Positions 30,773 through 63,605 of a stretch of 64,000 nucleotides of DNA are shown here, one piece after another. The first letter of the stretch is position 1, and each line of letters begins with the position of its first letter. A model generated the notes under the pieces. The model saw only the letters and a program-made list of their open reading frames with translations, ran no database searches and was not told the DNA's origin. Made by a program: the position numbers and the translations under genes. The DNA comes from Porphyra umbilicalis. Taxonomy: Eukaryota; Rhodophyta; Bangiophyceae; Bangiales; Bangiaceae. The stretch lies in NCBI GenBank assembly GCA_002049455.2, contig KV918927.1, forward strand, positions 1-64,000, in the 5' to 3' direction.

Positions 30773-31524
30773 CAGGGGTTCTCGATGATATATCCCCGAG
30801 GATTTTATCCGTGGATTATATCCGTATCCACTTCGCCTTCGAGCCGAGGACGCATATCAAAAATGCATTCTGAGAAAAAGAGAAGAGGATATATCTATCC
30901 TGTCCGCCAGAATTTGCCAGAATATATTGTATCCGTATCCCAGATATGAGATTCAGGAGACAAAGTCATATATGATTATGAGACTTCCCGCATCTGGAGA
31001 ATTCTTGTTAAACGCAGTCGACCTTTCGTTTCGCGTGCCGACAATCGGGGGATTAATGTCCCAATATTTCGCTGCGACAAGCGGCTAGCCAGCCCGACCC
31101 AGGTGCAACCGTTCAATCACGCGACACGATCCGATTGCGTTGTTGTCAGAGCGTGACACGAGGTTCAGAACGCCCATTCTCACGTCCATTCACACGAACG
31201 GCGGGTAACCGCGTCGTCGGCGCCCGTTGGGGCGTTGAAATCAAGTGTGGATCTCAAGCTGTACTGACGTCCATTTCGCACGCGAATAACCGCTGGATGG
31301 CGTTCTTCTTGAGCTCTTATTGAGCTGTCTCTCGGACGTGGGGGTTTATATTCGGATCCAATAATCGTATTCGGGTTTGAATATAATCTGCCCAAATATC
31401 CGGTTCCGAAAGCAGATATCCCGATCCGGATCTCAGCTGAGGGAGTAGTCTGTCATCAGATATGGAGGATCGGCGTTTATCCGCATCCTATCACGGCCCA
31501 AAGAACATATCCTGACAACCCCTG
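30773..31524. mobile_element. hAT-type MITE, 752 bp, with perfect 8-bp target duplication
   Basis: Begins CAGGGGTTCTCGATGATATATCC and ends with ATATCCTGACAACCCCTG, giving imperfect terminal inverted repeats CAGGGGTT(G/C)TC. It is flanked by GTACCAAT at 30765-30772 and 31525-31532, an exact 8-bp duplication. CAGGG-type ends with 8-bp duplications are the hallmark of hAT transposons. There is no transposase inside. Many GGATAT / ATATCC words crowd both ends. It is clearly related to, but much more diverged than, the two 753-bp copies inside the LINE to the right. Confidence 0.85.
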
Positions 31525-37307: not shown

Positions 37308-37548
37308 CAGGGGTTGTCAGAATACGGTTTCTTGGCCGTATTCGGGCCAGAATACGGATATATTCCGGAATATGTCGCAGAACATTCGTCCATGATTGTC
37401 CATTGAATAAAAAAAGACCACCTACGGGAAGCTCTGGACGTCACTATGTCAATATCCCGAGCTGCTGGCTCAACTTGATGTCGAATATTGTCGTTTTTTT
37501 GCAATTACAGTAGCCCAAGGTATCGGATATGTATCCTGACAACCCCTG
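37308..37548. mobile_element. Short hAT-type MITE, 241 bp, inserted in the copia relic
   Basis: Begins CAGGGGTTGTCAGAATACGG and ends GTATCCTGACAACCCCTG, the same terminal repeats as the 752-753 bp copies. Flanked by GTCTACAT (37300-37307) and GTCTAAAT (37549-37556), an 8-bp target duplication with one mismatch. Internal sequence is rich in ATACGG/CCGTAT and GGATAT words. No coding capacity. It postdates the copia relic it interrupts. Confidence 0.85.
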
Positions 37549-42950: not shown

Positions 42951-43257
42951 TCATCTGCTTTAGAGGAATGCCCCAGGAAGGCTTCGTTTCGATGGTGCCC
43001 GACCACCACATCGAAAAAGGTTACTACAAAAGAGGAGAGCAGCCCGCGTTTGCAATGTGACGTTGTGTATTTAATCGATGAGCTGCAGACAAAAACGAAA
43101 ATCCGGAATGTCCAGAAGTGGGTAAGAATCAGTACAGAGAGTGCCCTTGCATGTACCAACAAACAATGGTTGTGCGCAAAAGCGCGCGAACGCTCCGACC
43201 CGGGGGGGGGGGAGGAAGGCGAAAAAACAGCGGATGTGGGGAGCCGGGGAGCAGCAA

Positions 43258-43409
43258 CGGGAGACGCGGGCGGCGTCGCCTTATGCCGGCTGGGGGTGGA
43301 CTCGGGCGGCCGACGCGTGTGGCTACGCGCTGGCTGCTGCTCGAGGCAGCAGGTGCCGCCGGGAAATGGATCTCCGGCGGAATCCGATCCCACAGCTTAA
43401 TCCCCGGTG
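43258..43409. repeat. 152-bp direct repeat, left copy
   Basis: Matches 51266-51417 in the same orientation at a spacing of 8,008 bp with only a handful of differences. On the minus strand both copies begin the same reading frame (MGSDSAGDPFPGGTCC), so each looks like the 5' start of the LINE ORF1. The left copy then diverges into unrelated sequence, which suggests a truncated second element lying head-to-tail. Confidence 0.75.
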
Positions 43410-43468
43410 TTGCTTTTAATCGGTCCCGGACCCAAAGCCCGCCGACTGCACTCTAGGGGTCAGCCCCT

Positions 43469-46400
43469 TCATGCGAAAAGTGAGCCACCAGTGACGGGGC
43501 CGCCAGTGGAATCCCCCCCATCCGTAAATAATTCGCAACCCCGACCAAAAAAATCCGCGCATTCCACCGCCAAAAACTCAGCGACACATTGGTCAGCAAC
43601 CCGGAAAGGGCCTCCCTGAGGTTCTCCTCCCCCGGCGCCGAGGCTAAGAAAGACGCCGTGGCCGGGCCAAGCCCCCCGCTCGCCTCTCACACCAGTAGTG
43701 ATAAGGTGTGGGGCGGGTCGCCAGAACGAAGGTACGGCGTGTACTTGCCGACCTTCTCCGCCTCGCGCACCCGGGCAGCCCTAGGCACGCGGGGAGAGCC
43801 CGCCGTGCGGGAGACGTGGATGGCCGCCGTCCCGGCGACTACCGATCAGGGGTTGTCATGGATATATCCCTGAGGAATATATCCATGCATTATATCCGTA
43901 TCCACTTCGGATACGCGCCGGGGACGCATATTCTAAATGTATTATGAGAAAGTGAAAAGAGGATATATCCATCCTGTCCGACAAAAATTGCAAGATTATA
44001 TCAGATCCGTATTCAAGATATAAGAGGCAGGATACAGGGATATATAAGATTATTAAACTTCTTGGGCCGACAGAACTCCGGTACAACGCGGTGCACCTCT
44101 CCTTACCCAGTCCGACCATCGGGAGATTCATGTGCAAGCATGTTGCAGCGACAAGTGGCTATCCCGCCCGACCCGGAAGAAACCGTTCAAGCACGCGAAT
44201 CGGCGCGCTTGCGATATCAGCAAAGTGTGACACGAGTTTCAGAACGGTCTATCTGACGACCGTTTACAAAAACGGCGGGGAACTGCCTGGACCGCGCCCG
44301 TTGGGGCGCACACATCAAATGTGAATATCAAGTCGTACTTGACGTCCATTTAGCACTCAGCAAGTGCCTGAATGGCGTCTTTCTCTGGCCTAAATTGTGC
44401 GGCCGGACGGACTTGTAGGAATATAATCGGATACGATAATCGTTCTCAGATACGGATATAATCTACGTAATAATCTGGTTTCGGAGGCAGATATCCGCAT
44501 CCGGATCTTAGTTAAGCGATTTATCCGTAATCAGATACACCGCATCGGCGTGAATCCGTATCCTATTTCCCCTCGAAATGCATATCCTGACAACCCCTGC
44601 TACCGACACGTCCCCCCTCAGCGGCGCTCCCGACGCCAGTCGCGTCGCCCGCAGGTCCGGGCGCAGCGCGGTCGATTGCTCCCCAGTGGGGGGAGGCGGC
44701 TCTGCCACGACCCCCAACCACCTCGGGTCTGCGCGCAGCACCGTGGCGACCCGCTGCAGCACCGATGTGTGGCGGAAGGTGCGCAGCGGGACGCTCCTCG
44801 GGCACCCGCCCAACCAGTGGGAGCCAAGCGGGTCTGCGAGCACGCCGCAGCGGCACTCACGGGGGAAGGCCTGTGGCACGGGGGCGATCCCCACCCACAG
44901 CTGCACGGCCGCCACCATCTCAGCGCCCTTCGTGGCGCCGCGCAGCGGGCCGCCGCACGGCAGCCGGTTCAGCCACAGCCCGGAGCCGTGGCCGCAGCAG
45001 GCGTCCCAGCGCGCGCGTGCCGCCAGCGATAGCGGCGCCCACATGCCTCGCGCCGGCGCCAGGTGTGCCGCCTGCGCCAGCTGCCGCTGCGTGAGCCGCG
45101 TCGGTGCCGCAAGCATCGACCCTCAGCTGTCCGGGACGCCGACCAGCCACAGGAGGTTGGCCGCACCGAGTGCGCGCCGGGCCACTGGCGGCACCTGGTG
45201 GGCACCGTCGGCCGACGACAGCAGCTGGACGACGCGCACGAGGGCGTCGCGACCGGCCGACGTCAGGGCCAAAAGATGCTCCATCCTGATCCCTGACGGG
45301 CCGGGCGCCTTGCCTCGTGCCGCCGACCGGCTGGTGGCGACCACCGTCTCCGCCGCAAGTCGTCGCGGCTCCGTCCCGGCACGCGCCTCCCCGAACACAT
45401 TGGCCTTCTCCAGCTCAACAGGGAAGGCGGCGGCCAGCGAGTCGGCTGTCGCCAGCTCTGGTGTCGCTGCGGGGAAGAGGGAGCTCGTCTTGGCGCGCAC
45501 CTCGTCGGTCTCCGCGGCCACGGGCTGCCCGGTGAGCGTCTGCACGCACCCCCGCAGCTGTCCGTGGGCGAGGCGACGCAGCGCCCGGCACTGCCGCTTG
45601 GTGGGGCTCGCCCCCCCCCCCGCCACCGCCCCCCCCGCCGCCGGCACGTCGGCCGCCTTCGCGTCGTGCGCGGAAGCACGACAGCCTGGCAGCTGGCGCC
45701 ACACCCCCGCGTCCCGATCCGCGAGCGCATCAGCAAAGCTGCCGTCGAGGAGAGCGTCGAGGCGCGCCGCCCGCGAGAGAGGCTTGGGGCCGGGGGCGCG
45801 CCCGACGCCCCGATCGGGGACGTGTAAAAGCACTAAGGGAACGAGGAGGAGCCAGAGCCAGGCGTGGGCGTGCTCTGGGGCGCGGAGCACCGACCGGAAC
45901 ATGTCCGCGCCCAGCGCACCCCATCCCTCAACAAACAAACGCGGAACGGTCCCCTGCGTCTGCGCTCACGACGCAACGAGCGGGGCCCAGTCGGCATCCG
46001 CCGGCGCGGCGGCCTGTAGAAGCGCGCCGCGCCGGCGGACCCAATCCCCTTAGTCCGCCGTGAAGAGCGGCGGCGGCGGGGAATCGGGGTCCACCGGTGG
46101 CGAGGAGGAAGGCGACGGAGGCGGCAGAGGCGGAGGCGGCGGCGGCAGTGCAGACGACGGCGGTGGTGTGGAAGGCGGCGTCGGGGTACGCGACGGCGAG
46201 GACGGAGGTGAAGGCGGGGGGCCGCTGGCCGAAGCAGTCCCCGCGGCCGGTGCGGGCGTCGCGTTCACCGGCGCGCCGGACGCCGAGGGCGGTGGGGCCG
46301 GCGGCGGCGGCGGCGCGGCCGCGGCCACCGGCAGGGCGTCGCCCGCCTTGCACTTGCGCACTTGCATGGCGAGCGGTGACGAGCCGGAGCGGGGCTTTCG

Positions 46401-46835
46401 GGCCCGATACGGCTGCCTGCATCGCGGGCACGGCGCGAGCGTCATCTCCCGCACCGTCGCGGCGGGCACCTCGGAGAAGAGGTGGCACCGCGCAAGGTGC
46501 AGCGCCATCGGCGCCTTGTTGGGCGCCGCCTTCACGCGGCGGGCGCATGCGGCCACCGGGCACGCCGTCGGCGCGTTGCCGGCCGCGTTCTCGGCGGCCA
46601 GCATCGGCGGCGCCGCGCACCGCGCCACGTGGGCGGACAACGGCTGCCGCCCCGTGGCCGACTTGACGAGGGTGAACAGGCCAGCACACGTCGGGCACGT
46701 GCCGAGGCGGTGCGAGGCCAGCACCGCCGCCGGCGCGGCGGTGCCCGAGTGCACGCGGCGGAGGTGCTCCTCCACCGTCGCGCCGACGTGCACCACCCCG
46801 CAGGCGTCGCCGGGGCAGAGCAGAGTCCCCTCCAC
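43469..46835 (-). pseudogene. LINE ORF2: C2H2 fingers, RT flank, CCHC and RLE region; RT core missing
   Basis: Starts near 46835. N-terminal zinc-binding units: CPGDACGVVHV...HLRRVH, then CPTCAGLF, CPVAACARR...HLARCH and CPRCRQPY. After a Pro/Ala linker and two in-frame stops (near 46048 and 45961) the same frame reads through the N-terminal flank of the RT (RSAARGKAPGPSGIRMEHLL; RRALGAANLLWLVG) to a stop at 45123. It then resumes in the same frame with C-terminal sequence (LTQRQLAQAAHLAPARG), the knuckle CRCGVLADPLGSHWLGGC and an endonuclease-like RPDL...GDVSV. The palm with the YxDD motif, normally a few hundred residues, is absent: an in-frame deletion. A 753-bp MITE interrupts the endonuclease part, and coding resumes on its far side (AGTAAIHVSRTAGSPRVPRA) down to about 43469 with one more frame change. 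Confidence 0.6.
43847..44599 (+). mobile_element. hAT-type MITE, 753 bp, copy A (in LINE ORF2)
   Basis: Starts CAGGGGTTGTCATGGATATA and ends CATATCCTGACAACCCCTG. Target duplication CTACCGAT (43839-43846) / CTACCGAC (44600-44607), 7 of 8 bases. Almost identical to the reverse complement of 49232-49984: by eye about five differences over the full length. No transposase. It lies inside the endonuclease region of the LINE, whose reading frame continues across the empty site. Confidence 0.9.
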
Positions 46836-47034
46836 CCCCCCTCACCAGGGCGCTCCCTTCACCCGCAAGGGCCGACACGGCGGCCGCAGCCGCCGCAACA
46901 CCGCCAGCCGGCGCGCCCGCACCGGCCGAGGTCGCCGCCATCGGTGCACCGGTCACGGGTGCACCGGTGGTTGGCGCCGAGGAGGTTGGGTTGGGCGAGC
47001 CCCCGCTCCCCCCCGCCGCCCCGGCGACCCCCCG

Positions 47035-50000
47035 TTAATCATTGGCGGGGTCGTCGCTGACGGTGCTGGCGGCACTGCCGCCGTCGGTCGCCGCTGCTGC
47101 GGTTGGCACCGCGGCGCCAATCGGCGTGGCCAGCGGCAACGATGCGGGCGGCGTCGCCGACGGGTTGACCGTGGCCGGCTGGGCGGGGGTGTTAAGTTCC
47201 ATGCATGTGCCCTCTTCCCCTGCGTCGCTCACCCTGTTTTTCGCCGCGCTCGGCTCCGTCGCGGTCGACGCCGCCGTCACTTGCAGCGGCCGCGCCGCCG
47301 CCCGCTGCCGGGTGCGCAGCACCTGGCGAGTGCTGGCCGGCGACGTCGTCGGCGACGGCCGCGCCTTGCGGCGCGACCCCACCGGCGCCGCGGCGGCGAA
47401 TAAGGTCGCGGTCGACGGCGATGGCGTCGGCACGACGGCCGCGCCAGTCGCGGAGCGACGGAAGCGGGCGGCGCTAGCCACCTTTATCGCTGCCGTCGCC
47501 GCCATAGCGACAACGCCCGGCGGGTGGCCGAGCGTGGCGGCCGGGGCCAGCAGAGGGGCCTGAGGGGAGAAGGGTGTGGCGTCGACCAAGTCGTCCGAGT
47601 CGAACGCCACCCCCTCCAGCCCCCACCCCTCGCCGCCGTCCATCCCCCCCCCTCGTTGCCCGCTAGCCCCCCCGAAGCGCCGCTCACCTGCGGCGCCGAG
47701 CCCCGCTCGTCAAACAGCGGGCCGAGCGCGACACGCGCTGTCGCCGCAGGTGTCGCCACCACCGCTGCCGACGCCCGTTCGCGGCGGGCGGGAGTCCGCG
47801 TCCACGGCGACGCGGGCGAACGAGCCACTTTCTCCTCCCCGGCCGGCAACGGTCGGCGCCCCTCGTCGCTGCGTCGCGCTGCAGCGACCGACGCCCCGAC
47901 AACAAAGGCCGTCGTCTACGCCCTCGCGGCCGACCCAGCCGTCGGCTTCTCCACGTGGCGGCCACGCGCCGCCGCCGGCGCGGCCGGCGCCATCGCCGGT
48001 GCCGCCGCAACTTGCGCGCGACAGCAAGACTGCGGGCCACCGGCGGCAGCCGGCCCTGTGCGTGCCGCCGACTGGCTGCGCGGCGGTGCCGGCGACGACG
48101 CTGCGCCCGGTGGCGTGACCGCCCGGCCACGCGCCCCCGACGGCGAAGCCGACCGGCCACACGCCGACGCCGGCGTCGCCGACGCAGCCGGTGGCCCTCC
48201 GGTTGCCCGCCCTCCCCCCACCGCGGCGTCCGTGCCCGGCGCCGCAGAGGTCTTCCCCGTCTTGGTCGTCGCCGCGGCGGCCTTGTCCGTCGTGCCCGCC
48301 GTCTCCACGGCCGTTACCTTGTCCTCATTGTCGACCCGCGTGACGACGCCCTGGACCTTGTACCTGGGCGGCGTCGGACTGTCCGACGCCGACGACGGCA
48401 CCACCGTTGAGGACGCAACAGGCGCGGCGGGCGTCGCCCCGTCCTTCACGTCGGCGTCGGTTGCGACATTGGGGGCGTCAAGGTCGTTGGGCGCTGGCGT
48501 CGGCATCGACGTCGTCGGCGGCCGCGCCGACGGCGGCGCACCTGCAGCGGTCGTCGACGTCGGCGGCGTCGCCACCGACGACGGCGGCGTAGCGGCGGTC
48601 GGCGTCGACGGCGGCGCGGCGGCGGCGGCGAATGCCGCCCGGGCGTGGACCGACGACGACCCGGTCCTCAGCCCCGCCCCGTCGGCAGGTACCACCCCCG
48701 CCATGGCGTCGGCGTCGGCGTCACCGTCCGCGGGGGCACCACCGGCGGCGGTGGCACTCGGCGCCGACGCGGGCACAGGGTCGCGGGTGGAAGGTGGGGG
48801 CGCGCCCTGGGGCGGAGGCGCGTCCAGTGGGGATGAGGGGGCACGTGGATAATCGCCACGTAGCGGCGGACGGACCACGGTCGTCACTCCCACCTCCGTC
48901 GGCGAACGGGATCCGCCCGCCGCCGCCCCACCACGGGCGTCCCCACAGCGCGCGGATTCCCCCCCCCCAGCTGCACTGGCCACGGCCGCGCCGCTGGCAG
49001 CCTGGCCAATCATGGAGAGGGAGCTTACAGTCTGATTTGGCTGTTGGCCACCCTTGCGGCGGCGGCGGCGGCGGTTGGAACGGCCGCGGCTGGGTCCGTC
49101 CGCCGCCTGCCGGCCCGAAGCCGCGGCATCAGCAGCCGGCTCGTCTGCCGCCACGGCCGCCACCGCGTCTGCCGTGCCCGCTGCCTGCGGAGGGCCCACC
49201 TGGGAAGATATCCGCCGGTGGCGGTTTCCAGCAGGGGTTGTCAGGATATGCATTTCGAGGGGGAATAGGATACGGATACACGCCGATGCGGTGTATCTGA
49301 TTACGGATAAATCGCTTAACTAAGATCCGGATGCGGATATCTGCCTCCGAAACCAGATTATTACGTAGATTATATCCGTATCTGAGAACGATTATCGTAT
49401 CCGATTATATTCCTACAAGTCCGTCCGGCCGCACAATTTAGGCCAGAGAAAGACGCCATTCAGGCACTTGCTGAGTGCTAAATGGACGTCAAGTACGACT
49501 TGATATTCACATTTGATGTGTGCGCCCCAACGGGCGCGGTCCAGGCAGTTCCCCGCCGTTTTTGTAAACGGTCGTCAGATAGACCGTTCTGAAACTCGTG
49601 TCACACTTTGCTGATATCGCAAGCGCGCCGATTCGCGTGCTTGAACGGTTTCTTCCGGGTCGGGCGGGATAGCCACTTGTCGCTGCAACATGCTTGCACA
49701 TGAATCTCCCGATGGTCGGACTGGGTAAAGAGAGGTGCACCGCGTTGTACCGGAGTTCTGTCGGCCCAAGAAGTTTAATAATCTTATATATCCCTGTATC
49801 CTGCCTCTTATATCTTGAATACGGATCTGATATAATCTTGCAATTTTTGTCGGACAGGATAGATATATCCTCTTTTCACTTTCTCTTAATACATTTAGAA
49901 TATGCGTCCCCGGCGCGTATCCGAACTGGATACGGATATAATGCATGGATATATTCCTCAGGGATATATCCATGACAACCCCTGGTTTCCAGTCACCCCC

Positions 50001-51401
50001 AATCCGGGCGGAGTGGGGATGGGTCCTCCCCCCCCCCCCCAGAGGGAAGCCGCCAGGGGCACCAGCTGGGCCGCGAGGTTGCGCCGAAACGCCTCTCGCA
50101 GCCAGGGAAGCATGCCCGTCCGGTGCGGCAGCTGGTGCAGCTTGGCGGCCAGGCGGCGCGCAAAAAACTCGCACGCGGCGCCGTCCGCCGCTGCAGGGGA
50201 CAGGCCGCGGCGGCGCCTGGCGCCAAAGAAGAAGGCCGACGCGGGGTCGGCGTCCGCCAGGTGCGTCAGCACAACCGCCGCCGACAGCGTCCGCAGAGCC
50301 GCCAGGAAGGCGGGCACCGCGTCCGCCAGCAGCGTGATGGCCGCGACGTCACCGCACCGGACGACGTCGACGACCGTCCGGCGGGGAAGGCCGACGAGGT
50401 TGGCAGCGAGGCGCCGCAGAAGGTGGGCACCCGTCCCGCGGGGGACCCCGCGCACAAAAAGGGTGACCAAGTCGACCCCCCCCGCTCGGCAGCGGGCGGC
50501 GTCCGCCAGCAGCGTCTTGGCGGCGGAGGAGGCGCGAGACACACGGGCGGCCGTGTGTGCCGCGCCTCGGGCGCCGCCGCGCCACGCGGCGGGCGAGCCG
50601 CGGGGTGCACCGAGAGGGGGGGGGGACCGGTGGCAGCAGCCGCAGCGCCGCCTGGGAGGACAGCTGCGGATACCCCACCGGCACCGCCGGCCGGGGCAAG
50701 CGGCGGGGGAGCAAGAGCAGCCGGTGGGAGCCGACGAACGCCACCGCGACCATCTGCCACCCGCCACCCGTCGTCGCCCGGCGGGGTGAGCGGCGGCGGG
50801 AACGAAGGAGGAAGATCGCCGGCCACAGGCGGGGGGGGGCACGAGCGGGCGCCAGAAGGGGCGACGGAGGCGGCGACGGAGGGAAGGGGGGGGGAGAAGG
50901 GCGAGGAGGGGGAGGGGGGGAGCCCCGTCGCAGCAAGGTCATGGGCGCCGCGTCAGCCGCGGGCACCGAAGGGCCAGGCGCAACGCCAGTGGCCAACGTA
51001 CTGTCAGCCGGCGCCTGACGCGCGGACGTCGCGCGGATCGGCGGCGGCGAAACCGCCGCAGCCGACCGCAGAAAGTCCAAAACAAGTCCAATCAAGTCCC
51101 GTCGATCGGACGCGGTCCCGCCGCCGGCGACGGCGACGACGAGGGCGTCGACCGCCGCCGCCGCCCGCGCAACAACGACCGGCGAAAACGCCCCCCCGCC
51201 GCCCCCGCCCCCGCCATGGGGAGGGGAACTCCTCCTGCAAAAGGGGACGGTGAAAAAGATGCCGCCGGGAGACGCGGGCGGCGTCGCCTTATGCGGGCTG
51301 GGGGTGGACTCGGGCGGCCGACGCGTGTCGCTACGCGCTGGCTGCTGCTCGGGGCAGCAGGTGCCGCCGGGAAATGGATCCCCGGCGGAATCCGATCCCA
51401 C
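47035..51401 (-). pseudogene. LINE ORF1: RNA-binding-like protein with low-complexity linkers
   Basis: Begins at an ATG at 51401 (MGSDSAGDPFPGG). A helical part (RRDLIGLVLDFLRSAA) precedes Pro/Ser-rich sequence. In the next frame an RRM-like alternation of strands and helices follows (VDLVTLFVRGVPRGTG; RRTVVDVVRCGDVAAITLLA; ACEFFARRLAAKLHQL), about 50410-50050. The MITE at 49232-49984 interrupts the frame, which continues across its 8-bp duplication into RHRRISSQVGPPQAAG, then a long Ala/Pro/Thr-rich region containing the less biased YKVQGVVTRVDNEDKVTAVE. It ends near 47035, about 200 bp before the ORF2 finger region. At least two frame changes besides the insertion. Assignment as ORF1 rests on position and the RNA-binding-like pattern. 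Confidence 0.45.
49232..49984 (-). mobile_element. hAT-type MITE, 753 bp, copy B (in LINE ORF1), inverted relative to copy A
   Basis: Ends CAGGGGTTGTCAGGATAT and ATATCCATGACAACCCCTG. Flanked by a perfect 8-bp duplication, GTTTCCAG, at 49224-49231 and 49985-49992. Orientation is opposite to copy A. Its own target duplication shows an independent insertion. Near-identity to copy A implies both moved recently. Confidence 0.92.
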
Positions 51402-51417
51402 AGCTTAGTTTCCGGTG
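51266..51417. repeat. 152-bp direct repeat, right copy (LINE 5' end)
   Basis: Partner of 43258-43409. It covers the 5' boundary and first codons of the LINE ORF1 on the minus strand. Confidence 0.75.
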
Positions 51418-51419
51418 AG

Positions 51420-52760
51420 GAATGGGAACGGGCCTATTCCTCGCACGTGGCTAAATCTCTTCGCCCCAACCCGCCTAAAGTCAACGCCCGTGGTACGTGC
51501 AACCGTCGGACACAGACAATACGGAGGTGTTCTCGTTACAGTCTTGATGCGAATATCGATGAGTGCGGCCCTCGATGACTTGGTTTTCCATCAAGAAGGA
51601 GACTTGCACTGAGCATATAACTCGAGATAATCGTGTGACTTCAACAGAAAGTATCGACACGAGGCAGTTTTGCAGAAAAGTTGTTTCTGACGCGGTGATC
51701 GAACTTGCGCCCCCGTGAAATGTGGGTCGGAAGATGAAGCTTTGAGCAGTACCACAGAACAAGATCTGCGAATATTAAGCAAGTCTCTTTCGAAAATGTA
51801 GACGGATAGCCCAGAAGATGTGCAGAAGAACTTCTTTCATTTGATCTGATACAGGTCCGCCAGATTGCTCCGGCAGCCATGAAAGACGGTTCCATAAGCT
51901 ATCCCAGAGATCATCCTGACGAGAGAGAAGAACGATTCTGAGGAAAACACGAGACACTATCATCGGCGTGATCCTCAAGAAAGGTATCAGGAAAATGCAC
52001 AACCATGTGTCCCCGCATGTTATGCAGCATGCACTCGGCGGTCATCTCGTGACAGGAATCGAGCGCTCACATGGAGACAGCTGCTGCCCACATGTCTGGG
52101 ATGGCTCCGCGACTGTTACGCACATTGTTTTTGGGGATTATTTGCGGTCTGCTAAGTGCGGCTTTGTCCTGAGACGATACGACAAACAGCCTGATGAATG
52201 AGATGCCAATCGCCCGCAACGGCTTCTCCATGTATCGTTGTGTGGTCTCCCCCCCGTATTTGCCGTAGAACCACACTGCAGGAAATTTCTGCGGCCAACC
52301 TACACGACTGTGTGCGGCATGTTCTTTAAAATCTATTCCATACGACCTGTTGCCATGTGCTCACTTCAAAACATCGAGCACGCCTTTCAGCAGCGCCGTG
52401 GGGTCGTACCGGCAATGACACACTGGAAAGCCTAGTTAAGTTTTGCTCAGTTTCCTCCATACACGATCCATGCGGTCCCCTCCGAAATCTTCTGGGGTGC
52501 GCTCGCGAAGAACGCTGAAGAGATGGCCTTGCGACCTATGCTTTGTTTTTTGTTAGAGTGCATCGTACCAGATGCACCTCCAACCATTTCGAAGGAAATA
52601 CAAAGGCGATGACGTGAAACAATGGTGTGACCTCTCAGCGCGGCAAGCATTGAAAAGCAAACAAACGCACACTATGGGAACAATCAGCCATAAAACGAGA
52701 CGGCCTTCTCAGAGGGTGGTCGCCAATAACTGCTGCACGCCAGTCGGGACATCAATAGGC
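51420..52760. other. Lower-GC sequence, no recognisable gene
   Basis: GC falls to around half. Short frames on both strands (up to 93 codons) have no motif. Past the LINE 5' end this may be older unique DNA. Confidence 0.4.
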
Positions 52761-52764
52761 ATGT

Positions 52765-53570
52765 TCAGTCGGCCTCTTCGTCAGACAAGTCAACGTCTCG
52801 CACTTCGAAGTCCTTCTGTTCATCGTGCATGGACTGGACTATGGCCTTGCGTGCTTCCGCGCTTTCGGGTCGCAGGTACTTGGGATAATCTTTCGCTTCG
52901 TTGTAGCCCTTCAGGCACAGAGCATCTGCCGTCCGTACTGAAAACCACACCTCGCTTGGCTCCATCAAAACCAGCTCGGCAATGATCCCAGCCGCTGTCC
53001 CAGAGAGGTCCGAACGACGTTCCGTCCTTGTGTCGCCCTCTTTGAGGATCAACTGGTAGCCGATGTTACTGTCCTGCGCGATTGGGTCAGAGAAGCCATC
53101 ATCTACCGCTTCACTAGTTGGGGATGCTGGCGTCGACAAAACGCGCTCAATCGAGGCACGCTCCACTTCCGAGTCCATGTAGACACCCAGAGTCCTGTGA
53201 CCAAGCAGTCGAGCAGAGTTTTGGTGGCGGTTCACCTTGTAACGAACAGACTTTGGAAGGGACGTGGTGACTGTGCGTCGCATACTGAACACATTGTCTG
53301 CTTCGTAGTTGATCTGAAAAACCGCTTTCTTCACGGTCCTCTGTATCAGGATGCGTACGCAGCGATTTTCGAGCTTGGTTGCGCCGTGCAAGTGCGCAGT
53401 GGGCACCATCCAGGAGATGCAGTCGAATTCGGAGGCGCCCTCATTGGGTGCAGTACTAGCAGACTCGGATGCATTGGCCGGGGTGGCACCCACCCTTCTG
53501 ATCTTGCGCAGCTGTGCCTGCCCGTCCTTCACGAATATGAAGCATACTGTGTCCTGTGTTCAAGCCTTAT
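52765..53570 (-). CDS. Unknown protein-coding region, about 265 codons
   Basis: The longest natural-looking frame in the lower-GC stretch. It is open from about 53570 (TVCFIFVKDGQAQLRKIRRV), after an in-frame TGA where Trp would fit, to a stop at 52765. No ATG is near the start, so it is probably an exon or the remains of one. Features: CVRILIQRTVKKAVFQINYE, a segment NRHQNSARLLGHRTLGVYMD, an acidic Ser/Thr linker, then SNIGYQLILKEGDTRTERRS, AAGIIAELVLMEPSEVWFSV and a charged C-terminus ending DVDLSDEEAD. No family recognised. The mixed composition and balanced codons make it a better host-gene candidate than most frames here. Confidence 0.45.
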
Positions 53571-55720: not shown

Positions 55721-57856
55721 GGTTTCTTGAATTTTGCTTTTTTCAGCAGGAGGGCTTACAGCAGCGTTGAGCATGACGTTCCAACAGGTTTTGTGCCGCG
55801 GCACTTGGTACGCCGACGTGCCATCAGCGCGGACGTCGTCGTCCCCAAGGGTCAGCCGCGTGATGTCCTCCGCGCGGCGCATCCACCAGAACTGCAGGAC
55901 GACCGCAGTGAGTTGGTGTCGACGCACTGTCGGCGAGCGTAGCGCCAACGCCGCCAGCTGCCAGGCGACGAAGGCGGGGAGCGGTACGCGCGCCAGCTGA
56001 ATGACCGGCCGATAGGTAATGCCCGCCCGACAGAAGCCGGCCTTGGCTTCGCGCACCCTGTCGTCGTCACAGGGGTTGGGCTGGTCGGCGGCCAAAAGCC
56101 GCTTGCGCACGGCCGCGAGAGAGGGCTTGAGCGAGAGGGCGACGACCGACGCGCCCCGCCACAGGCAGCCCACATAGGCCAGCAGCGTCTCCGTGGAGGT
56201 AAGTCGTCTCCGTGGAGGCGGGCAGCGGGCAGAGCCCGCGCTGGCAGCAGTAGGCCTCGAAGCGGCCCCACGCCCCATTGCACCGCGCCGCAGTGGTTGC
56301 GAACACACTGTTCAAGCGCAGCAAACGGGCGGCAGCGGCATCAGCGCCTCTCCGGGGGCTGGCACGCGCCAACGTCCGACGTTGCGCGCGTTGCTAGGCA
56401 GAAGCCCCGACAGAACGGAGAAGCGGTGACGTCGATGGGCGGCGCGGGAGCGGCGAGCTTGGCGGCGGGCCGCTGCTGCCTCGGAGAGCCCCCCCCGCAC
56501 GAAGCGGAAGACCGCCATACGCCACTTGCGGGGCGGGGCGGGCCGTAACGTGCGGCCGCTTCGGAACAGGCCCGCTGACGCCGGCAGGAGGTACCCTTCG
56601 TCGGCGGCCGAGACCGCCGGGGCCTTCCAGTGCTGCGCGACCCACACCGGCAAGATGACCGTTGCCGTGGCCTTGTCCTTCCGCACCTTCGCGAGGACCC
56701 GTTCGACCTGGTTGAAGGGAGGGTAGATCCAGTTGTTCTCCCCACCCCCCCAGAGGACCGAGAAGGCGTCGACTGCCTCCACCCCGGGCGCGTGCCTCAA
56801 AGTGTTGAAACGCGCGCACTTGGTGTTGTTCGGGGTGGCGAAGCGGTCCACCGTGTGCACGCCGTACCGCTGCACCAACACGCGGAACACCGGGGTCGAC
56901 AGCCGCCAGTCGCCGGGGTCGGAGCGCCGCGACAGGGCATCCGCCCACACCTTGGCGCCTGAGGGCAGCCAGGACGCCAGCAAGGTGACGCGGTAGAGAA
57001 CCGCGACAGCATGTAGGCTCCGAAACTCGGCCATCAACGCCAAGGAGCGGCTGCTGATGCCTTTTATCACATGCATGGCGACCCGGCTGTCGACACGCAG
57101 ACGCAGCAGGCCCTCCTTGCCGAGCAGCTGCGACCCGAACGCCAACAGGCAGAACCGAGCCGCGGAGACCTCCTTGAAGTTGATGTGGACGTCCCGCTGA
57201 GCTGCCGTGCAGGACCCCGCCACCGGGAGGAGGTGTTGCCAGTGGCCGCCTCACTCGTAGGGCGAGGCGTCCGTCGTCAACTCTCCCACAGCACGGGCAA
57301 CAAAGCCCGCCCAACAGCCGGCTCCGTGCGCAGCTTTGAGAACCACGCCAAGTCGGCAACCGCCCCGTGGGTCAGGCACGACACCCGTGCCACCAGAGAC
57401 TGGCAGTCGTACACCCGCCGGAGGAAGAACCGAGCCGTCGGGAGGGCAAGCTGGCACGATACTGCCAGACCTAAGAACCGCTGCAAGGTCTTGAAGGACA
57501 GGCGCCGAGAGCGCAGGCGGGCCGCCGGCAGCAGCGCCTTGGCGCCGCCGACGAGCTTGGCTAGCCGAGCGGGTGGTAACACAACCAGCCGGCGCGTCGT
57601 CTCCACCAGGAACCCGAGGAGGGGGAGCCGGGTTGTGCCCACCGCAAAACCCTTGAGCGGGTGGACCTGGATGCCGAGCTGGTTGAAAAGCGACAGGATT
57701 TCCACGCGCCCCGCCGTTGCTGCCGCCATGGTCAAGGGACGAGCCCCCCGCCCGTTGACGGCAAAGTCGATGACGTACGCGTTGACCTTGAAGCCGCGCA
57801 ACCGCAGAGCCGCCACCACTGGCCGCATCATCTTGGTCCACACCCACGGGCTCAGC

Positions 57857-58277
57857 TGTGAAGCGGGAGGTAGATAGGTGGATGCGTTGGTTTACCTGGA
57901 TGGCGGCCTTGGGCCCACTAGGACCACCTGATATACCCCAGGCGACCCCTCTGCCAGTCCCAGAGACGAACCTCTCTCAGTGCTCCTCCAGGCACTTCCA
58001 CTCTCCGCGTGTGCAGGGCCTGCGGCGCACCTCCCAAAGCGGAGCATGCGCCTCCCCGGTGGTAAGCCGCCCAACGCCGCACAATCCAGTCACCACGCCA
58101 CGCACAATCCCCCCCGAGCTCACCACGAGAAGGGGGGAGCTCACCAGAAGATACACAAATCAAGTACAAACAAGTACAAGTCGTACACAATGGAATGCCA
58201 ACAAGTACACAAGCTTGAGTCACCAAAAGCCCGCGTGTAACTATAGCTCCAATGGCATTCCCGAGTGGAGCTCAACA
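57857..58277 (-). repeat. 3' LTR of the copia element, 421 bp
   Basis: Plus-strand sequence TGTGAAGCGGG...GAGCTCAACA. Same length as the partner at 63185-63605 with about 16 substitutions. TG/CA ends. Confidence 0.9.
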
Positions 58278-58309
58278 CTCTCCGAATTCCATTGGAATTC
58301 ATGTAAGTC

Positions 58310-58690
58310 CACCGGAACGGCCGGTATCGAAGCCAGCAAAAGCACTCCGCGCGAATTTTCTTGTAGACGGTATCGTTAACGTCCACCAAAAAAAAGTCGC
58401 CGTTAGTCCACAAAAACAAAAGGGGCTCAGTCGACTGCCGCCGACTTGGGCAGCAAGATGACATACCCCAGCCGAACGTTCGGCCACCAGAACCGGCCCA
58501 AACAGCCCCAAGCTCTGCGCGATGTTTCTTGTGAACGGTATCGATACCGTCCAATACAAAAAATCGCCGTTAGTGCACAAAATACAAAAGGGGCTCAGTC
58601 GACTGCCGCCGACTCGGACAGCAACATGACATACCCCAGCCGGCCGTCCGTGCACCACAACCGGCCCAAACCACCGCAAACCAGATGCCA
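58310..58690. repeat. Two-plus copies of a ~166-bp tandem repeat in the copia 3' region
   Basis: Copies starting near 58310 and 58485, with a partial third near 58655, share GACGGTATCG, AAAAGGGGCTCAGTCGACTGCCGCCGACT and GACATACCCCAGCCG in the same order. They lie between the end of pol and the 3' LTR. Confidence 0.75.
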
Positions 58691-61600
58691 AACGCAAAGG
58701 GCACGCGGCCCGTCATGATGGTCGCTCCGCCAAAGAGCTCCGCCGACCACGGAGGGGCTCAGCACGTGGAAGCAGGACGTGAGGCGGGCGTAGCGCCCAG
58801 CCGCGCGTTGCCAAAATCGGCGCCAATGCCAATGACGCGCCGAAACAAGACGAACGCCGGGGCCGGCAGCGGCTTCGTCAGCCCATCTGCCGGTATTTCC
58901 ACGCTAGGGAGGAAGTAGAACGTCACCTCCCCGCGCGCCACGTAGTCACGGACCATGTGGTACGCGACATCCACCTGCTTGGTACGCCCGGTGGCTTCGG
59001 GGTTGTTGACCAAGGCGAGACAAGCCTGGTTGTCTTCCCCCATCGGCACGGCCCCGCCATCGACGCCCAGAGCCGACAGCAGCTTGCGTAGCCACAGCGA
59101 CTCCTTCGTGGCCATCGCGGCGGCCACGTACTCCGCTTCGGCCGTCGAGGTTGCCACCGTCGACTGGCGCTTGCTTGCCCACGCGATGGGCCCGCCATTG
59201 AGGGTGAAGACGAAGCCTGTCGTCGTCCGACGGCCGTCAACGTCGCCCGCCCAGTCGGCGTCGACAAACCCGTGCAGCGGCTCGCTGCCGCCGTAGACCA
59301 CTCCAAGGCGGGTTGTCCCGCGCAGGTAGCGCAACACCCCCTTTGCTGCGCGCATGTGGTCCTGCTCAGGGCACGACATGAAGCGCGACAGCACCCCCAC
59401 GGCAAAGGCGATGTCCGGCCTTGTCGTGGTGGACAGGTAGAGGAGGGAGCCGACCAACTCGGCGTAACGGTTACCCTCCGGCAGCAGGTCCTCGCCCGTC
59501 TTGGCAAGCTTGACCCCTGACGCCATTGGCGCCTTGTTTGGGGTGGAGGTCTCCATCCCGAACGCCTCCAGCAGCGTCACCGTGTGCCCCGGGTTGCTCA
59601 GAGTGAGCGTCTTTGACTCACGGTCACGCATGACCTTCATGCCAATGAAGTCGTTAACCTCCTCCATGTCACGTACTTCGAACTTTGCCGACACAGAGCG
59701 CTTGACGGCAGCAACTCCAGACAGCTTCTCGCCCGCCACGATAAGGTCGTCGACGTACACGAGGATGAAGACGCGCCCGTGCACAGGGTGGCACCACTCG
59801 TAGAGGCACGGGTCTACCTTGGATCGCAGTGCACCGAGCTCCTGGAGCTCCTTTTCAAGCTTGATGCCCCACAGCCGCCCAGCCTGCTTTGTCCCGTAGA
59901 GCGCCAGGTTAAGCCGACACATCTCCTCCACGCCCTCCGGCTCGATACCGTCGGGGAATTTGATGTACATCTCCTCGTCCATCTTGGCGTTGAGGAAGGC
60001 TGTCTTGACGTCGACATGGTGAACCTCCCAGCCCGTGGCTGCAGCCACTGCAAAGAGGGCCCGTGTGGAAGCCGCGCTGGGGACCGGCGCCCACGTCTCG
60101 TCAAAGTCCCGCCCCGGCACTTGGTTGAAACCTTGGGCCACGAGGCGGGCCTTGTAGCGCGTCATCTTGCCCTCCGCGTCGTGCTTGACGTCGAACACGA
60201 AACGCGTCTTGATCGCCTTGTGCTTCTTGTCTTTCACCTTAATCTTGGACCAAGTGCCAAGATTCTTGTGCGCTGCCACCTCCTCCTTCATGGCCTGCTT
60301 CCAACGCGGCCAATCAGAACGAGCACGTGCCTCTTTCTCGTTTGCCGGGGGCTTGTGTAGGTCGCAGCCCGACTCAGCCGCACTCTTGGTACCGCTTGCC
60401 AAGTACGCCTTGGGCTCCTTCTCCCACCATGTTACCTTGGGAGCTGGCTTTCGCTTTGAGCGACAAGGCCCAGGTGCGGCGCTGTCACAGGTAGCAGGTC
60501 CTTGACCGCCCGCCGGTGTCGAGCCATCGGGGCAATCCTCGACGTCCTCCTCGCTATCTTCAGCAAGGGAGGGAGGACCGACTTCTTCGTCGCTGTCAGA
60601 CGTGTCTTCGGGGGCGTACTCGTCCTCTCGCCCGCGTTCAGCGTCGAGCATGCCCATTGCCCCTTCCGTGGCGTCATCCTTGCCGCCGTCATTTCCCGCC
60701 GTCAGTCGAGGACCAGCGCTTGACCCGACTGCCGACGCCTTGACCTTAGCCGGGATCTCCTCCATCAGCACGTCTCGACGCTCGAAGACTTGGTTCGTCT
60801 TATCCTCTAGGATGCGGTAGGCCTTGCCACCGACCGTGTAGCTGAAAAAGCGGCCTACGTACTTCCTTGGCTCCAGCTTGCGTTGCTGTTTCTTGAGTTT
60901 GAGCGCCCACGCCCGGCTCCCCCACACGCGGAATCCCGCGACGTTGGGGCGTCGACCCGTTAGGGCCTCCAGCGCTGTTATGTCCAGCCCCGCCTTGGGG
61001 GACCGGTTGAGCACATGGACGACGGAGGCCAACGCCTCAGCCCACAGCTCTTCCTCCGCTCCGGCATCGAGCAGAGCAGCACGCACGCGCTCCATCAGCG
61101 TGCGGTTAACCCGCTCCGCTTTGCCGTTCTGCTGTGACTTGTACGGCGCTGTCATCTCCAACGTGATGCCCTTGTCCTCGTACCATGCCTTGAGGTCGTT
61201 GGTGACGTACTCCTTGGCACCGTCATGACGGACGCGCTTGACCTTGACTCCCGTCAGCGTCTCAAGCTGCTTAAAACGCGTCTTGCGAACCTGCGGTGCC
61301 ATTCCGTTCGTCTTGATAGGCGTTGCCGTGATGAACCCCGTGGAGTCCTCCAGCGCCGTCATAAAGGAGATGGAACCACCCAGAGACTCAGTGAGTGGGC
61401 CACCAATGTCAATGTGCACCAGCTCGCACTTGTTCGTCGCTGTAGACGAGCGGGGGCTCTGCGCCTGCACCATCTTGCCGTCCACACACGTTACACACAC
61501 AGTGCCAATAACGCGCTTGGCGTCTGCCACTGACACCGGCATGCCGTCGACCATTGTGGCCGCCCGCTTGAGGTTCTCTAACCCCAAATGGTTGAAACGA

Positions 61601-63169
61601 CGGTGCCACAGCTCCGCCTCCCCAGCTATACGCGTGGATGCCGAGTTAGCCGACGCCTGTACCGGCGTCACCTTGAGCACATACTGCTCCAGGTCGTTCA
61701 CCTTGCCGACAACCGACGCCTTGTCGAGCACTCCGCTCTAGCGAACACATCCCCGTCGCTAAGGATGTAGCAGGCGTTGTCGACAAACACCACCGCACCT
61801 CGATTGCGGTCGACTGCTCGAACCGACAGCAGGTTGCTAGTCAGGTCCGGAACGAGCATAGCATCCCCAAGAACCATGCGCGTCTTGGTGTTTCCTTTGC
61901 CAACGTCCATTGAGACGTGGCCGTGCCCCTTGATGGGCACCTCGTCGCCGTTGGCCAAGGTGACCTCGGCCCCGCTTCCCGCCGTCCAGATTGAGAAGCC
62001 CCTATCCCCGGCGTGTTAGACTATAAGTTTGAACTCCCCAGGACCATTCACATCGGTATTGTGGCTGTAGCTGAGTGGTACAATTTTCGAATCCCAACAC
62101 GGCGGCCATGTGGTTGGTTGCGCCTGAGTCAAGCACCCAGGTTGATAACCCGCGTGTGCTCCTGTCAGCCTTGCTGCTCCCGGCATTGCCGGTGGAAGCA
62201 GTGTAGGCCAAAGCGGCACCCGCGTGGGGCCCGCCGCCGTGGCCGCCTTCACCACCACCACCACCTGGCTTGCCCTTGCCCTTGGCCCCGTCCGCCTTCT
62301 TCTTGTAGCAGTCGCGCTGCATGTGCCCTTTCTGGTTGCAGTAGAAGCACACGACCGACTTCTTGTCAAACGACTTCTTGTGCGCTGCTGGAGCAAAGGC
62401 TTGTGACTTGACACTGCCAGAAGGCTTGGACGTGGCGACGGTAATGCTCCGCTGCTCCACTTGCAGCAGCTTAGCCGTCACGTCCGACATGACGAGCTTG
62501 GTGTCCTTGTTCTCCAAGACCGTCCTGAGCAGCCCGTACTCTGACGGAAGCCCCGACAAGACACGCAGTGCGAGCGTGTTGTCGTCCACTGGGTTTCCGA
62601 GCATGGCAAGCTCGTCCCGGATCATCTTGGCGCGCGACGCAAACTTGATGATGTTTTCGTCGTCGCCCTTCTTCAGGTCTCTCAGCTCGTCTATGAGCCG
62701 CAGCAGCTGCGCGTTGTCACGTGCCTCGAACATGACCTTGAGCGCGTCTCACGCCTCCTTGGCCGTGTCAACCGACGTGACAGTGTTGAGATGCACGGGC
62801 TTGACCGACATCTGGATGGTCGCCAGCGCCGCCTCGTTCATGGCGTCCCACGCTTCGACCACCGGGTCGGACTTCTTGTCGTCCGAACCAGAAGGAGGGC
62901 GGTCCGTCACGACGGCCGTCCACAGCTTCTCTTTCTTGAGCTGCGCACGCTGGTACGCCGCCCACACCTTGTAATCGTCGTCCAGCTGCGCGAACCGTGG
63001 GCCGCTAAGGCGGCCGTAGTCCGACATGTTGACGACAGCGGCGCGGCCAAGCACCGCACTGACGACGTGGACGGCGGTATCGGCCCGCGCGACGCCAGAA
63101 CACACCACAACCCGAGAAATGTCGTCCGACCAGCGACCGCAGGGAAGACGACGATGACCACCAGCGACA

Positions 63170-63184
63170 GCTGGGCCCATAACC
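63170..63184 (-). promoter_or_regulatory. Primer-binding site matching the initiator tRNA-Met anticodon arm
   Basis: The minus-strand sequence GGTTATGGGCCCAGC directly follows the 5' LTR. It is the complement of GCTGGGCCCATAACC, the conserved anticodon arm of eukaryotic initiator tRNA-Met, not its 3' end. Drosophila copia and Ty5 are known to prime from a half-tRNA in this way. The same word is at 55226-55241 next to another LTR and, diverged, at 35056-35070. Confidence 0.75.
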
Positions 63185-63605
63185 TGTGAAGCGGGAGGTA
63201 GATAGGTGGATGCGTTGGTTTACTTGGATGGCGGCCTTGGGCCCACTAGGACCACCTGATATACCCCAGGCCACCCCTCTGCCAGTCCCAGAGACGACCC
63301 TCTCTCAGTGCTCCTCCAGGCACTTCCACTCTCCGCGTGTGCAGGGCCTGCGGCGCACCTCCCAAAGCGGAGCATGCGCCTCCCCGGTGGTCAGCTGCCC
63401 ACCGCCGCACAATCCAGTCACCACGCCACGCACAATCCCCCCCGAGCTCACCACGAGAAGGGGGGAGCTCACCAAAAGATACACAAATCAAGTACAAACA
63501 AGTACAAGTCATACACAATGGAATGCCAACAAGTACACAAGCTTGAGGCACAAAAAGCTCGCGTGTAAGTATAGCTCCAATGCAATTCCCTAGCGGAGCT
63601 CAACA
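63185..63605 (-). repeat. 5' LTR of the copia element, 421 bp
   Basis: Partner of the LTR at 57857-58277. It is followed on the minus strand immediately by the primer-binding site. The outer boundary abuts the TCAGC target duplication. Confidence 0.9.

Follow-up and report, generated by a model that had tools for sequence, protein, structure and literature searches.

The window analysed here comprises positions 1 to 64,000 of contig KV918927.1 of the red alga Porphyra umbilicalis (assembly GCA_002049455.2), and it carries two nearly identical miniature inverted-repeat transposable elements (MITEs), copies A and B, inserted in opposite orientation into one copy of a larger repeat, probably a long interspersed nuclear element (LINE). 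The features of the locus, together with two full-size elements found elsewhere in the genome, are collected in Table 1.

Table 1. Coordinates of the MITEs, their host repeat and related elements; positions refer to the window unless a contig is named.
Feature	Position	Strand	Remarks
MITE copy A	43847..44599	+	753 bp; terminal inverted repeats CAGGGGTTGTCA
MITE copy B	49232..49984	-	753 bp; inverted relative to A
Left target duplication of A	43839..43846		CTACCGAT
Right target duplication of A	44600..44607		CTACCGAC
Left target duplication of B	49224..49231		GTTTCCAG
Right target duplication of B	49985..49992		GTTTCCAG
Left-end palindrome of A	43860..43869	+	GGATATATCC; element bp 14-23, adjoins the terminal repeat; common to the 7.5-kb elements
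Host repeat, probably LINE	43019..51533 (approximate family limits)	- (coding strand)	reverse-transcriptase part missing at ~45141
Older MITE relative	30773..31524	+	73% identical, full length; two mismatches in left 12-mer; duplication GTACCAAT on both sides
241-bp MITE of another family	37308..37548		same 12-bp ends; duplication GTCTACAT/GTCTAAAT; similar 242-bp copies on C1 and C42
Full-size hAT element	C36:12230-19706		7,477 bp; same 12-bp ends; perfect 8-bp duplication
Full-size hAT element	C40:128498-136048		7,551 bp; same 12-bp ends; perfect 8-bp duplication differing from that of C36

The terminal inverted repeats are 12 bp long and perfect in both copies. The initial annotation had described two elements of equal length with common ends and opposite orientation, each with its own 8-bp target duplication, and all of this was borne out: the two duplications of A are identical at 7 of 8 positions and those of B at 8 of 8, and the duplications of A and B are unrelated to each other. 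Aligning A with B gave 6 substitutions, where about five had been estimated, and no insertions or deletions, which corresponds to a divergence of 0.8%. The longest stop-free frame in copy A spans 122 amino acids, and the MITE has no coding capacity. Allowing at most one mismatch, the terminal 12-mer occurs 7 times in the window versus 0.34 expected.

Two copies this similar, lying 5.4 kb apart and inverted, could in principle have arisen from one insertion followed by duplication and inversion of a larger block that carried the MITE. Under that history the surroundings of the two copies should resemble each other, but their target duplications differ, the inverted arms extend just 13 and 2 bases beyond the elements, and the 200-bp flanks gave no mutual match at an E value of 1e-4. 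We also searched the genome for paralogues of the host repeat using the stretch between A and B and the outer flanks as queries. Site B was empty in all six paralogues spanning both sides (C115, C4, C13, C69, C497 and C114), with the flanks meeting at a single 8-bp target; in C13 the alignment covers six target bases and leaves out the first two. Site A was likewise empty in six of six paralogues (C115, C13, C114, C456, C4 and C69), with 7 shared bases at the junction. Here the paralogue match ends before the final base of the left duplication in the window, which suggests that the final base of CTACCGAT, a T, probably changed after the insertion. A more distantly related paralogue, C225 (69-73% identical), could not accommodate an insert of MITE size. 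Because each site is empty in all six paralogues that span it, with one copy of the target, no larger block was duplicated; we rejected that explanation and regard its probability as close to nil. A and B are thus two separate insertions, as originally proposed.

The initial annotation had also pointed to a LINE coding sequence that continues in frame across each empty site. By coordinate arithmetic, the minus-strand frame including 44511-45122 does pass through the joined site A, and the minus-strand frames 49961-50938 and 47919-49319 join in frame at site B. Other frames, some of them on the plus strand, are also open across both joined sites in this G+C-rich DNA, and continuity of the reading frame is therefore weak evidence; the empty paralogous sites are strong evidence for the insertions, and stronger than the frame.

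The identification of the host repeat as a LINE is likely rather than certain, and the copy in the window is incomplete. All seven paralogues covering window position 45141 carry extra sequence there, measuring 1.56-1.59 kb in C115, C13, C69, C114 and C456 and more in C4 and C497. The 1.58-kb extra sequence of C115 (part L109) gave a profile match to RVT_1 with an E value of 1.2e-5 and 25.5 bits, below the curated cut-off of 29.6, and the motifs LRPIG, LDFKNAFH and GTQQGDVLGP are readable in it, with LHEDMYVM where a YxDD-type motif is expected; the coding direction of this reverse transcriptase corresponds to the window's minus strand. Since the part of about 1.58 kb is missing at 45141, the host copy in the window could not supply its own reverse transcriptase as it stands. 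Visual inspection of the frame at 46053-46841 showed a C2H2-like stretch, CPGDAC...HLRRVH. A search of 43000-51600 against Rfam returned no matches, and Pfam searches of nine out of a set of ten frames, and of a set of four window frames, returned no families, the tenth frame of the first set being that of the copia element described below. The reverse-transcriptase match in a paralogue and the C2H2-like stretch may point to LINEs with a restriction-like endonuclease (the R2/NeSL/HERO group). The host repeat differs from them in the absence of reverse transcriptase from the window copy, in the LHEDMYVM of C115 and in 152-bp direct repeats near both of its ends.

These direct repeats, at window positions 43258-43409 and 51266-51417, are 95% identical. 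Short forms of the host repeat found elsewhere (e.g., C341:38799-39305, 507 bp) resemble the two ends joined at the 152-bp repeat and are perhaps internally deleted derivatives. At C160:10284-13764, pieces from the ends of the host repeat follow one another about every 1.49 kb, which gives the look of a tandem array.

Further copies of the MITE were sought in the 83.8-Mb genome, as the initial annotation had suggested. From 209 candidates we scored the 40 most like A, a choice under which close pairs among the others may escape notice. Counting A and B, the family comprises 40 or more copies that are complete or nearly so; those scored measure 745-755 bp, with L090 lacking its outer left end. 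The target duplications are perfect in 30 and contain one mismatch in seven, so that 37 of 40 agree at 7 or 8 of 8 positions, the remaining three being L090 and two copies at 6 of 8 (L094 and L095). Across the genome the exact 12-mer CAGGGGTTGTCA occurs 352 times versus 12 for a reversed control, and the 23-base left end 79 times versus 0 for its control. Longer variants on C4, C49 and C190 share almost the whole MITE and have additional sequence near MITE base 284-301; the longest frame in the long variant of C49 spans 158 amino acids. A 5.5-kb candidate for a parent element, C457:7762-13298, was rejected as it proved to be a MITE interrupted by two other insertions (L105, C457:7560-13500).

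The 37 duplications share a target motif, nTnnnnAn, with T at the second position in 31, A at the seventh in 34 and both in 28 (binomial p 1.6e-34). The Buster group has a central TA target, in contrast with the Hermes type, and a central TA was present in 1 of the 37. Passages of two papers on Hermes give its insertion site as nTnnnnAn (PMC2803484; PMC10368747).

The scored copies differ from one another by 5.8% on average, and only three pairs fall below 1%: A/B at 0.8%, and L074 (C344)/L078 (C94) and L063 (C488)/L066 (C187) at 0.66% each, the members of the last two pairs lying on different contigs. In the tree all three form two-member clades with local support of at least 0.994, and A and B are sisters with 0.998. 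As judged from these distances, the insertions of A and B are young relative to the family. The initial claim of recent insertion thus holds in relative terms, and an age in years cannot be derived.

Given that A and B are sisters separated by 5.4 kb, local hopping into the LINE-like repeat is the most probable history, whether one copy gave rise to the other or a single donor close by gave rise to them. Local hopping is named for Ac elements in a review (PMC2874221). Five of the 780 pairs of scored copies lie on the same contig, and three of these five are mutual nearest neighbours: A/B (5.4 kb), a pair on C83 (26 kb) and one on C47 (21 kb), which rank 3rd, 5th and 8th in closeness. When contig labels were shuffled, three mutual-nearest pairs were reached in 0 of 5,000 permutations. 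As the scored copies had been chosen by likeness to A, we repeated the permutation without A/B, and two such pairs were reached in 2 of 5,000; a test on the mean same-contig distance gave p values of 2e-4 with A/B and 0.026 without. The two other same-contig pairs, on C94 (91 kb) and C97 (16 kb), tell against local hopping with ranks of 534th and 754th. The pattern as a whole fits local hopping, but local gene conversion would produce it as well, with the three mutual-nearest pairs, and could also account for the likeness of A and B. Under that explanation they would be older independent insertions homogenized as nearby inverted copies, and the seven changes from the 40-copy consensus that are found in A and B only are in keeping with it. 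The equally close pairs at 0.66% speak against it, since their position on different contigs means that young copies exist without nearness, as does the spread of the six A/B differences from base 59 to base 722. We therefore hold gene conversion to be improbable and retain a local hop as the likeliest course of events.

A transposase source with matching ends is present in the genome. The two 7.5-kb elements on C36 and C40 have the same 12-bp ends as the MITE, and both show the asymmetry between left and right ends that the MITE shows. In the C36 element a frame of 936 codons is free of stops (873 codons when counted from the first Met), and the corresponding frame in C40 is interrupted by one TAG. 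The C36 transposase matches the hAT dimerisation domain PF05699 (2e-8; 34.3 bits versus a cut-off of 21.4), and its four matches among solved structures are named Hermes transposase (two) or transposase (two). D355 (DLWT), D424 (TDSGSNV) and E843 (SASERDFS) align with Hermes in two alignments at the positions that we take to be the Hermes catalytic residues, the stretch with the two D residues being weak on its own at 4.3 bits. The target motif, the Hermes-like catalytic residues and the repeated GGATA/TATCC near the ends all indicate hAT, so that the original assignment to this superfamily stands. Since a source with the same ends exists, the objection that the genome might hold no hAT transposase with these ends falls away.

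Of 277 candidate matches to the transposase protein the best 49 were scored, and 32 of these 49 contain stops. Eight loci among the matches listed reach at least 70% protein identity. Most of the protein can be read without interruption in just two of them, C36 and C15; stops occur in C40, C55, C52, C219 and C267, the last of which is also split into two matches, and C10 consists of two stop-free pieces 11 kb apart.

The MITE and the C36 element have the left 23 bp in common, and their outer right 17 bp are identical by eye. The left 74 bp of the MITE match the left ends of C36, C40, C55 and C267 at 84-85% identity, and its left 57 bp match those of C15 and C52 at 79-82%; a 28-bp inverted echo of the left end is present in C55 and C267. 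Several observations weigh against these elements as the source. The 17-bp match at the right end was not reported by BLAST (Basic Local Alignment Search Tool). When the MITE was compared by BLAST with 43 loci bearing a transposase or a hAT domain, some of them overlapping cuts, only left-end matches were returned and none to the interior, and the parent is therefore inferred from the ends. No large element with ends closer to the MITE was found, and the exact 12-mer was absent from 30 other hAT-domain loci within at most 1.5 kb on each side of the domain. Moreover, C36 and C40 are 96.4% identical counting gaps (3.6% different), with 2.6% substitutions, more than separate A and B.

Another hAT group of the genome might instead have moved the MITEs. 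The genome contains 125 matches to the hAT dimerisation domain, part of which were inspected, and elements on C5 and C21 share the 12-bp ends, but continue with AAGCG. On the other hand, a MITE-type left end is present at six of the eight best-matching protein loci that were cut out, C36 included: C36, C40 and C55 have all 23 bases, C15 and C52 are one base off, and C267 has one mismatch in the 12-mer. These six are also the only ones of the 43 hAT-bearing loci that the MITE matches. In C219 and C120 (58% identical) no MITE-type left end was found within the DNA examined. We consider a source in another hAT group unlikely. A and B are very probably non-autonomous hAT MITEs moved by a transposase encoded elsewhere in the genome, most likely by 7.5-kb elements of the C36/C40 type.

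The elements on C5 and C21 (L041 and L045) constitute a separate group in which the shared 12-bp ends are followed by AAGCG, with a 1.28-kb element on C21. On C5, a right end lies beside a frame with a hAT dimerisation domain, and no matching left end was found on that contig.

The subterminal sequences of the MITE and of the 7.5-kb elements are organized alike. GGATA/TATCC occurs 17 times in the MITE versus 1.5 times in shuffled sequences, and in C36 there are 8 and 8 occurrences in the outer 300 bp at the two ends and 4 in the inner 6,877 bp. Next to the left terminal repeat, at bp 14-23, lies the palindrome GGATATATCC, and the right end has GGATA only, without a palindrome. We aligned 20 hand-chosen left ends, eight of them from copy A, from its older relative in the window and from six loci with a transposase, and the other 12 from small elements picked for their start CAGGGGTTGTCATG. 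The palindrome was perfect in 11 of the 20, one base pair off in seven and worse in two. According to passages of PMC10368747, the left end of Hermes, unlike its right end, has within bp 11-27 two subterminal repeats that together form a quasi-palindrome and are bound by BED domains. By analogy, the algal palindrome may serve like the Hermes pair, which is held by two BED fingers, in which case asymmetric recognition of the left end would be an ancient and general hAT trait. We offer this tentatively, as a possibility somewhat short of even, and two results count against it: within the MITE family (39 of 40 copies, L090 excluded) bp 13-38, which include the palindrome, are conserved no more than other stretches, and the C36 transposase gave a zf-BED match at an E value of 0.077 and 13.5 bits only, below the cut-off of 20.6 and over just 10 positions. 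If the analogy is true, MITEs would be kept mobile by retaining the left-end palindrome.

On the model of Hermes, transposition would begin with binding of the transposase to the repeated GGATA/TATCC near the ends, above all to the left-end palindrome. The D-D-E site would then excise the element, which would be inserted at an nTnnnnAn target cut with an 8-bp stagger, giving the duplications.

The closest known system is Hermes of Musca domestica (Ac/Hermes type), with which the algal elements share 8-bp nTnnnnAn duplications, short end repeats, D-D-E motifs, a dimerisation domain, subterminal repeats and a pair of palindromic repeats confined to the vicinity of the left end. They differ from this type in that no clear BED match was obtained here and in the unrelated interior of the MITE. 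Hermes is also smaller, with 612 amino acids and about 3 kb in the passages of PMC10368747, versus the algal frame and element sizes given above. According to PMC3942097, hAT elements measure 2.5-5 kb, so the 7.5-kb algal elements are longer, and hAT terminal inverted repeats span about 10-25 bp, a range that includes the 12-bp repeat found here. Mar of Drosophila (PMC3517528) is likewise a small, non-coding hAT MITE family; the likeness is one of description only, and the family here differs in its red-algal host, its length of 753 bp and its own end sequence. We found no description of the present family in literature on hAT elements, MITEs and DNA transposons in red algae, Porphyra umbilicalis and Pyropia, as covered by titles, abstract openings and passages of PMC7423979, most subscription papers being outside this scope.

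Other features of the window and genome may be recorded briefly. A copia-type long terminal repeat retrotransposon lies at window 57856-63483; its flanking direct repeats are 98% identical, and its long minus-strand frame (58759-61737) has integrase and RVT_2 matches. Window 51265-53500 recurs at C167:65500-67735, about 14 kb further on and just outside the window, with 99% identity over at least 2.2 kb (the query ended at 53500). Contig C665 (185 kb) holds 10 of 11 phycobilisome-domain matches and was read as the red-algal plastid; among its proteins are two with matches to phycoerythrin and phycocyanin chains, the top match of the first being named fluorescent protein.

The elements described here form a new family of the already known hAT/MITE type. 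A double insertion into one repeat is ordinary in itself, and most of what was observed is ordinary transposon biology. What the locus adds is a hAT/MITE system in a red alga. Its partner elements agree in their ends, a transposase frame without stops is present, empty sites occur naturally, and there are signs of local hopping. The parallel with the left end of Hermes makes the mechanistic idea testable, and a native transposon pair of this kind could become a genetic tool in a red alga.

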